NCBI RefSeq assembly: GCF_011751865.2
Contig: NZ_CP061770.1
Location: forward strand, 1,426,001 to 1,490,000
From: Salinibacterium sp. ZJ70
GTDB taxonomy: Bacteria; Actinomycetota; Actinomycetes; Actinomycetales; Microbacteriaceae
DNA: 64,000 bases
Direction: 5' to 3'
The position numbers were made by a program, and so were the translations under genes. Below the pieces are notes generated by a model. That model was not told the origin of the DNA and did not search any database. It worked only from the letters and a program-made list of their open reading frames with translations. Below are positions 10,219-14,757 of this stretch, piece after piece. Position 1 is the stretch's first letter, and every line of letters begins with the position of its first letter.

Positions 10219-10574
10219 CCACATCCGCTGCAGTACCCAGCCGCGCTGACCGGCTCCGCGTCGTCGCGTGGCCCGCCATCGCCACACTCGTGATCGCGCT
10301 CTTCGCGTTCCTGCGGATGTGGCAGCTTGCGATTCCCGTGCCAGAAGGCACCGTGTGCGCCGCGGTCATGCCGCCGCCCGCCGGGTGCGCAGGAGATGCG
10401 CGGATCATGCCGGCGACCGTGTGGAGCGCGATCGTGGGAGTCGCGTCGATCGTGACCATCGGACTCGCCCTCAGCGGACGCGCGACGCGTCAGGTCGTGT
10501 GGATCGGCGTCGCCCTCACGGGTGCGCTCGCCCTGTTCGGACTGCGCGACGTGGAGCACCTGCCCGGGATGTGA
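10215..10574 (+). CDS. Small membrane protein of unknown function
   Basis: The 119-aa protein starts at GTG 10215, overlapping the bioQ stop by 4 bases, so it is probably translated with it. Three hydrophobic helices are visible: about residues 17-33 (VAWPAIATLVIALFAFL), 67-83 (TVWSAIVGVASIVTIGL) and 94-108 (VVWIGVALTGALALF). Two cysteines (VCAAVMPPPAGCAG, near 48 and 58) lie in the first loop and could form a disulfide outside the membrane. I do not recognise a family. The link to bioQ is by position only. Confidence 0.7.
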   Translation: MTTSAAVPSRADRLRVVAWPAIATLVIALFAFLRMWQLAIPVPEGTVCAAVMPPPAGCAGDARIMPATVWSAIVGVASIVTIGLALSGRATRQVVWIGVALTGALALFGLRDVEHLPGM

Positions 10575-10583
10575 TCCCGGGCA
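10561..10583. terminator. Hairpin terminator of the bioQ operon
   Basis: TGCCCGGGAT (10561-10570) and ATCCCGGGCA (10574-10583) make a 10-bp perfect stem with a GTG loop. The stem spans the stop codon of the small membrane gene. It faces the palindromic array that ends the suf-side transcript. Confidence 0.6.
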
Positions 10584-10588
10584 TCGAC

Positions 10589-10739
10589 GGTGTCGTCAGA
10601 TGCTGAAGCCAATCCGCTTCGCGGCGCGATCGGCCTGACGACACGTCGGTGTCGTCAGATGCTGAAGCCGATCCGCCTGTCGGCGGCGCAATTGGTACTG
10701 AGAGCCCACCGGGCTCTCAGATGCTGAAACCAATTGCGC
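10589..10739. repeat. Array of nested-palindrome repeats at the 3' end of the DUF59 gene
   Basis: Three copies of a ~28-base unit (10589-10617, 10648-10676, 10711-10739) share the core TCAGATGCTGAA followed by RCCRAT. Each core is flanked by arms whose complements lie next to it, giving the alternating order Q1-P1-Q2-P3-Q3. Unit III (10686-10739) is an 11-bp outer stem (GCGCAATTGGT with ACCAATTGCGC) and a 10-bp inner stem (CTGAGAGCCC with GGGCTCTCAG) with a 3-base loop. The stems are separated by a one-sided bulge, ATGCTGAA against a single A. Unit II (10623-10677) has the same plan: CTGACGACAC/GTGTCGTCAG around a GTCG loop, then the same ATGCTGAA bulge, then GATCGGC/GCCGATC. Q1 can pair with P1 instead. 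The arms change together while the bulge stays constant. Confidence 0.85.
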
Positions 10740-11046
10740 GCATCATGTCGCGGCCGTCGTCGGTGATGCGCTCCGGACCCCACGGGGGCATCCACACCCA
10801 GTTGAGGCGGAAGCGCTCCACGATGCCGTCGAGCGACTGACCGATCTGCTCCTCGATGACATCCGTCAGCGGGCAGCCCGCCGACGTGAGGGTCATCGAG
10901 ATGATGAGCGCATCGTTCTCCTCGTCCCACGCGAGGTCGTAGATGAGTCCGAGGTCGACGATGTTGACCCCGAGCTCGGGGTCGATGACGTCCTTCAGTC
11001 CCTCTTCGACCTTGTTGAAGAGTTCGGTTTCGAGCGAAACAGCCAT
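10717..11046 (-). CDS. sufT: DUF59/MIP18-family iron-sulfur assembly factor (SufT-like)
   Basis: The 109-aa protein is a metal-sulfur cluster assembly factor of the DUF59 family, thought to help place Fe-S clusters in target proteins. The hallmark DPELGVNIVDLGLIYDL is at residues 22-38, and the conserved cysteine of the TSAGCPLTDVI motif is Cys58. The C-terminal tail reads DDGRDMMRAIGFSI. It ends the suf cluster but has its own likely leaderless promoter in the 27-base gap after sufC (TAGCCT, 6 bases, ATG 11046). Its last codons and stop lie inside nested-palindrome unit III, two more copies of which follow downstream. Confidence 0.92.
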   Translation of the reverse strand: MAVSLETELFNKVEEGLKDVIDPELGVNIVDLGLIYDLAWDEENDALIISMTLTSAGCPLTDVIEEQIGQSLDGIVERFRLNWVWMPPWGPERITDDGRDMMRAIGFSI

Positions 11047-13339: not shown

Positions 13340-14757
13340 TATCCGACGCTGCCTTCCATGCTCATCTCGATGAGCTTGTTGAGTTCGAGTGCGTATTCCA
13401 TGGGCAGTTCGCGTGCGATCGGCTCGATGAAGCCGCGCACGATCATCGCCATCGCTTCGTCTTCGGGAAGACCGCGCGACTGGAGGTAGAAGAGCTGCTC
13501 CTCGCTCACGCGCGAGACCGTGGCCTCGTGCCCGAGCTGCACGTCATCGACGCGGATGTCGATCGCCGGGTAGGTGTCCGAGCGCGAGATCGTGTCGACG
13601 AGCAGGGCGTCGCAGCGCACCGTGTTGGCGGAGTGGTGCGCATTCGCGTCCACCCGCACCTCGCCGCGGTATCCCGCGCGGCCGCCGCCACGCGCGATCG
13701 ACTTCGACACGATCGAGCTCGTCGTGTACGGAGCCATGTGGATCATCTTCGCGCCGGCATCCTGGTGCTGACCGGGACCCGCGAACGCGACCGAGAGCGT
13801 CTCGCCCTTCGCGTGCTCGCCCACGAGGAAGATCGAGGGGTACTTCATCGTCACCTTGGAGCCGATGTTGCCGTCGATCCACTCCATGGTGGCGCCGGCT
13901 TCGGCGCGCGCGCGCTTCGTGACGAGGTTGTAGACGTTGTTCGACCAGTTCTGGATGGTCGTGTAGCGCACGCGGGCGCCCTTCTTCACGATGATCTCGA
14001 CGACAGCCGAGTGCAGCGAGTCCGACTTGTAGATCGGCGCGGTGCAGCCCTCGATGTAGTGAACGTACGAGTCTTCGTCGGCGATGATCAGCGTGCGCTC
14101 GAACTGGCCCATGTTCTCCGTGTTGATGCGGAAGTAGGCCTGCAGCGGGATCTCGACGCGGACGCCCTTGGGCACGTAGACGAACGAGCCGCCCGACCAC
14201 ACCGCGGTGTTGAGCGCCGCGAACTTGTTGTCGCCCGAGGGGATGACGGTGCCGAAGTACTCCTGGAAGAACTCGGGGTGCTCACGCAGCGCCGTGTCGG
14301 TGTCCATGAAGATGACGCCCTGAGCTTCCAGGTCCTCGCGGATCTGGTGGTAGACGACCTCGGACTCGTACTGCGCGGCGACACCCGCGACGAGACGCTG
14401 ACGCTCCGCCTCCGGGATGCCGAGCTTCTCGTACGTGTTCTTGATGTCCTCCGGAAGGTCCTCCCACGACTGGGCCTGCTTCTCGGTGGAGCGCACGAAG
14501 TACTTGATGTTGTCGAAGTCGATGCCGGAGAGGTCGGCGCCCCACGTGGGCATCGGCTTCTTCTCGAAGAGCTGCAGCGCCTTGAGGCGCGTCTTGAGCA
14601 TCCACTCGGGCTCGTTCTTCAGTGCCGAGATGTCGGTGACGACCTCGGGGTTGATGCCGCGGCGAGCGGAAGCTCCCGCCGCGTCAGGATCGGACCAGCC
14701 GAATTCGTACTGTCCGAGGCCCTCGAGCTCCGGACGGTCGATGAGCACGTCTGACAT
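13339..14757 (-). CDS. sufB: Fe-S assembly scaffold protein SufB
   Basis: SufB (472 aa) carries the nascent Fe-S cluster in the SufBCD complex. The N-terminus has the family pattern [11 protein letters not shown] and [15 protein letters not shown], the middle has [19 protein letters not shown], and a conserved Cys lies in [11 protein letters not shown]. The C-terminus carries [18 protein letters not shown] and a helix in [18 protein letters not shown] longer open frame exists upstream, but ATG 14757 with GAGAGG 8-9 bases before it starts the conserved protein. It is the first gene of the operon. No sufR repressor gene lies upstream in this window: the neighbour is ctaA on the same strand. Confidence 0.96.

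Follow-up and report, generated by a model that had tools for sequence, protein, structure and literature searches.

Tandem terminator-like palindromic units carrying the tail of their host gene behind sufT of Salinibacterium sp. ZJ70: a probable family in Microbacteriaceae

The 3' end of a SufT-like gene of Salinibacterium sp. ZJ70 is occupied by an array of nested palindromes, at positions 10589..10739 of the window (the whole stretch of 64,000 nucleotides that was analysed), which reads on the minus strand as the end of that gene, the first of its bulges being coding sequence. It is probably a tandem array of ~62-nt terminator-like palindromic units that carry the tail of the host gene, and one member of a family of such units in Microbacteriaceae. 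The basis is comparative: the anatomy of the array, its recurrence at sufT, the fit of its anti-tails (inverted copies of the tail), the pairing that has been kept, and a terminator hairpin that is missing in 6 of 10 unit-bearing genomes of one genus (g74) all point this way. How the units stay paired is best read as the work of selection, of template switching, or of both.

The host gene matches PF01883 at 52.3 bits (cut-off 23.5) and lies under the cut-offs of all four NCBIfam models that it touches; its neighbour is SufC, above the model cut-off. On the minus strand the three cores read TTCAGCATCTGA, which is the F-S-I codons and stop of the SufT-like gene, and what had been described as a constant bulge is sufT's own tail: TTCAGCAT followed by CTGA, F-S-I-stop. 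In minus-strand order the array consists of gene tail, hairpin, anti-tail, spacer hairpin, tail copy, hairpin, anti-tail, spacer and tail copy, with a single T between the inner stem and the anti-arm of unit 1:

10717..11046, minus strand: SufT-like gene (MIP18/DUF59), 109 aa, ending ...MRAIGFSI*, stop TGA at 10719-10717; adjoins sufC
10729..10739, minus strand: unit 1 outer arm GCGCAATTGGT, coding for R-A-I-G; 11/11 paired with 10686-10696
10721..10728, minus strand: unit 1 bulge TTCAGCAT, coding for F-S-I
10698..10720, minus strand: unit 1 inner stem CTGAGAGCCC-GGT-GGGCTCTCAG, with the stop codon inside
10686..10696, minus strand: unit 1 anti-tail arm ACCAATTGCGC
10674..10685, minus strand: first spacer hairpin CGCC-GACA-GGCG; its sole exact copy in the ZJ70 genome, also present in the arrays of other genera
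10667..10673, minus strand: unit 2 outer arm GATCGGC, a non-coding copy of the I-G codons
10659..10666, minus strand: unit 2 bulge TTCAGCAT
10635..10658, minus strand: unit 2 inner stem CTGACGACAC-CGAC-GTGTCGTCAG
10624..10634, minus strand: unit 2 anti-tail GCCGATCGCGC; its outer 4 bases match the gene body and not the unit's own flank
10615..10623, minus strand: second spacer hairpin CGC-GAA-GCG
10590..10614, minus strand: last tail copy GATTGGC-TTCAGCAT-CTGACGACAC, a half unit (unit III) without its own anti-arm
10561..10583: separate perfect 10-bp hairpin covering the convergent gene's stop codon
10215..10574, plus strand: small convergent gene, no function assigned; no match in 8/8 congeners

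(A side note on the convergent gene: it lies between a TetR gene and sufT, its product is membrane-like, and a protein search gave five other proteins, three of them matching over their whole or nearly whole length.)

The geometry set out in the original prediction is confirmed. Three cores TCAGATGCTGAA stand at 10596, 10655 and 10717, with the arms as described; the inner stems, 10 bp each, are 10698-10707/10711-10720 and 10635-10644/10649-10658; the outer stems are 10686-10696/10729-10739 (11 bp) and 10628-10634/10667-10673 (7 bp); and ATGCTGAA is left unpaired on one side. The array exceeds chance in its folding. As RNA, the segment 10555-10760 folds at -116.3 kcal/mol (z -7.1) on the minus strand and at -120.8 (z -8.4) on the plus strand, and as DNA the segment 10560-10745 gives a z of -9.6; in each of the three cases none of 200 shuffles was as stable. 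The lowest-energy fold consists of the two nested units on both strands, and adjacent arms have alternative pairings.

Rarity depends on what is searched for. When nested palindromes with a one-sided bulge were sought loosely within a sample of 464 kb (the window and 20 further stretches, 16% of the ZJ70 genome), there were 12 matches, 3 of them belonging to the array; one Markov shuffle yielded 6, and the bare nested form is therefore not rare. A stricter descriptor that requires an (A/G)(G/A)(T/C) tip, and is consequently blind to unit 2 with its CGAC loop, gave one match, unit 1, and none in one shuffle. The same sample contains 95 close direct repeats of at least 13 nt, and a shuffle contains 8; of the long ones, many resemble repetitive coding sequence and one resembles a duplicated tRNA end. 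Searching the genome with the core, as had been proposed, returned exactly three exact copies in 2.84 Mb. The idea of a repeat dispersed over the ZJ70 genome was dropped: core, spacer and covariance model (with strict filters over the whole genome) and descriptor (over 464 kb) all lead to this locus only. Rfam 15 gave three matches for 10400-11000 of the window, at E 0.44-0.95 and all far under the gathering cut-off, and no matches for four other loci (L138, L139, L208, L262).

(Footnote on repeats of other kinds: intergenic repeats of the form CTGGTTGAGTAGC...GAGACC, or nearly identical to it, were seen in several Microbacteriaceae, some in tandem arrays (L085, L045, L055, L118, L127); a 240-kb Galbitalea sample (L118-L129) holds many short tandem repeats, more than the ZJ70 sample by plain count; L110 has a 66-nt direct repeat at 13519 and 13672, 153 nt apart, of an apparent tRNA end with a hairpin behind it; Cryobacterium frigoriphilum (L071) has a 15-nt head-to-tail repeat just behind the sufT stop; and L039 has a 12-nt inverted match around a terminator.)

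Homologues without the array, which the original prediction took as the mark of a chance local duplication, are what 8/8 congeners have, but the array is present in other genera, and a private local duplication was accordingly dropped as an explanation. One of the congeners (G003) has the gene tail GCGCGATCGGCTTCAGCATCTGA, the very form preserved in unit 2 of ZJ70 and in its anti-arm. Two of 80 family loci stand out: in Galbitalea the gene tail, which differs from that of ZJ70, occurs twice around an anti-tail, and in Naasia the tail has been copied in inverted form. (In Naasia lichenicola (L022) the sufT tail is followed immediately by its inverted copy, and the two form a perfect hairpin of 15 bp that spans the stop codon.) The pattern of a duplicated tail at short spacing occurs in the ZJ70 genome only, among 398 family genomes; at longer spacing it occurs in four more: Galbitalea, G017, G125 and G166. 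In the last of these, 78 nt of the sufT 3' end are simply duplicated in tandem, second stop included (L131, 1501-1595), and it is not counted among the units. Galbitalea (L012/L130), G017 and G125 have in common a tail copy, anti-tail and spacer plus an extra stretch, and are excluded from all pair counts; the lowest-energy folds of G017 and G125 differ from the simple nested form. A DNA search with the G125 element led to G239 (E 4e-6) and G114 (E 2.5e-5), whose plan is nearly that of the ZJ70 array; at E 1 this search matched 379 of the 398 genomes, mostly over short, chance-like lengths, and eight of 30 loci were inspected.

In g74, 10 of 25 genomes carry at their sufT stop a unit of ~62 nt with the spacer CGCC-GACA-GGCG and an (A/G)GT loop, as do single genomes of three further genera. 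A covariance model made from aligned units matched 16 of the 398 family genomes at E <=0.1 per genome, a threshold at which, over so many genomes, some of the weak matches are chance. Where the loci were read, matches fell at sufT in G000, G114, G055, G376 and 4 of the 9 g74 genomes in the sample; further sufT matches are a decayed unit in G073 and weak ones in G017 and G125, the matched locus in G227 holds no convincing unit, and a match in G179 is also listed. Spacer matches outside arrays (one in G239, two in G114) come with no nested unit; the reversed control pattern matched 2, 1 and 4 times across the three genomes. With all searches confined to the family Microbacteriaceae, the comparison of sequences makes the array seem a member of a family of units there and not a private accident.

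The genus g74 allows a closer look. A sufT match was found in 25 of its 26 genomes, and 25 ends were read; units are present in G410, G312, G413, G401, G407 (degenerate), G194, G239, G278, G406 and G403. The unit-less member G081 has a sufT end identical to that of Yonghaparkia sp. Root332 (L004), and g74 is for this reason probably the genus Yonghaparkia. Occupied and empty sites can be compared: in G194 a unit and a repeated tail lie between the stop codon and sequence that in G405 adjoins the stop. Where the gene's arginine codon is AGA the gene-proximal anti-arm ends in GCTC in 6 of 7 readable units (the exception is G194); where it is CGC the anti-arm ends in GCGC in both of two. The third unit of G239 has the tail and stem that stand beside the gene in G278. 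Compared with the tails of their own genes (15 comparisons, 10 genomes), tail copies show 32 synonymous and 3 non-synonymous codon differences, a count in which copies share ancestry and which is biased to well-kept copies because the degraded ones of G073, G410 and G406 (and also G376) were left out; the G073 copy has two non-synonymous codons, and the copies in G410 and G406 are shortened. We read the tail copies as former gene tails left behind, a pattern that exchange of gene ends between species could equal.

The stems have changed and have nonetheless stayed paired. Between the two full units of ZJ70, 7/17 stem pairs differ, every one on both sides. When five units from three genera are aligned, 98.1% of cells are paired (a figure inflated by deriving the structure from the same sequences) and 8 of 21 pairs are doubly changed, which is the stronger point; none of 500 shuffles equalled this, and shifting the partner by one column lets pairing fall to 39-40%. 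ZJ70's own unit 2, its loop one base longer, stands outside this alignment and the model but inside a count of 18 units with arms cut by hand, in which 351 of 360 stem cells are paired; G407 (degenerate), G073 (decayed) and the second G376 unit were left out of that count. The maintenance of shape that had been claimed on the strength of one array is thus seen in the units of other genera as well. Anti-arms also fit their own genes: in a set of 13 gene-proximal units, from 13 genomes in five genera, the arm pairs with the unit's own anti-arm at 10.5 of 11 positions and with that of another species at 8.6 of 11, a fit matched in 0 of 20,000 permutations. The fit is not perfect: one or two outer pairs are mismatched in 5 of the 13, and the G194 anti-arm mismatches its gene's arginine codon. 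Internal sufT units keep outer anti-arm bases that fit the gene, although their own flank differs, in 5/5 tested (the second G376 unit being left out).

What might such units do? A stable hairpin lies just behind or over the sufT stop codon, as in a terminator; there is no T-run after the stems of the array, and a consensus scan found no terminator in it. Every one of the 15 unit-less g74 genomes has, no more than 90 nt from the stop, a hairpin of 9 bp or longer with up to one mismatch; in those with units such a hairpin is found behind the array in 4/10 and is absent in 6/10 (Fisher P 0.0012, with kinship ignored and the 9-bp threshold set after the hairpins had been listed). This contrast suggests that units can replace an ordinary terminator. 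The argument is local to g74, since elsewhere the hairpin is often absent: of 80 loci from the wider family 43 have it and 37 do not, and the eight congeners divide 4 to 4, those that lack it having no units either. Behind the ZJ70 array comes the convergent gene's 10-bp hairpin, and behind that of G114 a 17-bp one. The ZJ70 array is likely to be a two-way end of transcription or a 3' protection. The original prediction's "not a simple terminator" is upheld as to the unusual make-up of the array and weakened by a comparison that makes a terminator stand-in possible.

The anatomy lends itself to a scheme. In every sufT unit the 5' half is made up of the host tail, stop codon included, or of an older copy of it; after this come a short loop, the tail again in inverted form with eight bases left out, a small hairpin and an old tail. 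The nested RNA hairpins may end transcription of the suf operon or protect its 3' end and, being palindromic, may serve the convergent gene too. Fresh units would arise beside the gene body, older tails ending up downstream, and selection on the hairpin would keep the arms matched, perhaps with template switching between arms. As to manufacture, target-templated fold-back insertion, with some machinery writing the body of the unit from its target, is a tentative suggestion and no better than possible: a constant turn (A/G)GT would be added and the gene tail copied backwards with eight bases skipped; a second constant turn, CGCCGACAGGCG, would then be added and the tail copied again. The gene would end in a fresh tail, with former tails stored downstream and a self-made terminator gained.

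Could mutation alone suffice? A hairpin at the gene end would have been tandemly duplicated and its arms recopied by quasi-palindrome correction, and matched changes would need no function. According to one proposal (PMC8794818), a single template-switching event can both create a perfect RNA stem and maintain it. The gene arm has three A/T-ending codons in a row, GCA ATT GGT, uncommon here (over 266 called genes, ATT makes up 2.4% of the codons for Ile) and mirrored in the anti-arm; units 2 and 3 are 88% alike across 42 nt at a spacing of 59 nt; and 2 of the 4 inner differences between units 1 and 2 are transversion pairs, with no G-U path possible, which fits a block copied by template switching. 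The outer-arm differences, however, are three transitions, all reachable by G-U steps and fitting a stepwise route, and local copying leaves unexplained why a similar spacer and loop occur at other genes and in other genera. On balance we think mutation alone unlikely.

Units at other genes bring up a second alternative: a small mobile palindromic element, MITE-like or like the Rickettsia palindromic elements, whose main trait is spreading and which gene ends merely tolerate. Related units seem to occur away from sufT in G183 and G130 (both genus g54), with one each in G106 and G278; their stems and bulges differ, and most have an inner stem of ~10 bp or slightly longer and a loop of (A/G)GT type, often with a CGCC...GGCG spacer. 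G183 has 8 model matches in six places, three of them in tandem (E 3e-6 to 0.01), and G130 has 4 (E 0.005 to 0.07). Three units stand behind an open frame of G183, ...GDVRWARAA*; in their anti-arms the frame's last codons, CGCGAGCCGCC, appear in reverse, and the second and third retain the outer anti-arm bases despite a differing flank of their own. Another G183 gene, which we take to be helicase-like, carries a nested palindrome within a 60-nt in-frame insertion missing from three congeners, so not every family member is visibly built on native sequence; with sufT of G194 and G405, that makes a further case of occupied and empty sites. The end of a G130 gene, presumably for xylose isomerase by its C-terminus, forms with the sequence behind it a long palindrome without a bulge. 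Multiple loci and insertions are what a mobile element should leave, but its ends should be constant, and here the palindromic arms vary with the site; half of the sufT palindrome is native coding sequence, which a pre-made element would not fit. The ZJ70 genome, as sampled and searched, holds this locus only. Some of the weak model matches must be chance, and the strict descriptor found nothing in 64,750 bases of G183 (nine contigs picked irrespective of model matches) nor around two of its weaker model matches (C35, C56); in 400 kb of G130 it gave one match, without the spacer, and one in a shuffle too. (At ~18280 of L252, from G130, there is a nested palindrome with a GGT loop, an 11-bp outer stem and a different spacer hairpin.) A mobile element of this kind is quite improbable as the whole account.

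The original prediction's own reading, selection on DNA or RNA shape plus a motif bound in the constant bulge, could point to a bulge that is identical in three copies while 7 of the 17 stem positions differ between the full units. Its first half stands, in that paired stems and structure are kept. The second does not: the bulge consists of the final codons of the host gene and varies where the gene varies, being TTTGCGAT at sufT of G376 and TTTAGCAT in G055, and bulges at other genes (TGAGCG and TAGGAG at one of them) are unrelated. Binding of a protein at the bulge is without support, and the combined reading is very improbable. Integrative elements often restore the 3' end of a gene, and the tail copies resemble such restored ends, but attachment-site remnants of elements integrating into the sufT 3' end are the most far-fetched of explanations: the three integrase genes found by a PF00589 search of the ZJ70 genome are all at least 176 kb away, only palindrome lies between the tail copies, and the anti-tails go unexplained.

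If the preferred reading is right, host-tail palindromes in a family of terminator-like units, why should it matter? Matched changes in the two arms of a stem are commonly read as proof of selection, and here is a natural case in which they can be weighed against template copying, a weighing aided by the coding and non-coding copies that stand side by side in the sufT arrays. It also hints at how genes could acquire terminators out of their own ends. Target-templated insertion, if true, would mean a small element, mobile or replicating, of a kind not described in the literature searched, and so a new one. That search, which covered few subscription journals, found no description of a unit of this sort.

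Parts of the design are familiar. The REP and BIME sequences are likewise alternating palindromes clustered behind genes; their sequence is constant, whereas the stems of sufT units are fitted to the host. The Rickettsia palindromic elements and small palindromic repeats are also short, palindromic, dispersed in some genomes and sometimes in-frame, and SPRITE is a terminator-like repeat (PMC10969869, PMC2229807). The Rickettsia elements, at 105-150 nt, are longer than the sufT-type unit of ~60 nt; unlike small palindromic repeats, the units described here have gene-end arms that fit the host gene, and arrays that hold other versions of its tail. Hairpins made by template switching share the inverted copy of a neighbour that yields a perfect stem, and the multi-base matched changes (PMC8794818), but here a similar spacer and loop accompany the copy, and a direct copy follows the inverted one. 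Intrinsic (Rho-independent) terminators share the hairpin directly behind the stop codon and Watson-Crick switches in the stems; those of Bacillus cereus show compensatory evolution, with G-U as the usual intermediate of stem change, and some of their hairpins serve convergent genes (PMC5381666). The sufT array differs from them in its two nested stems, its one-sided eight-base bulge, its lack of a T-run and its tandem units, and half of the unit 1 stems is the gene tail. Palindromic repeats and compensating terminators are known, then; what is new is a palindrome composed of the tail of its host gene and the stop codon, set in arrays where different versions of that tail persist.
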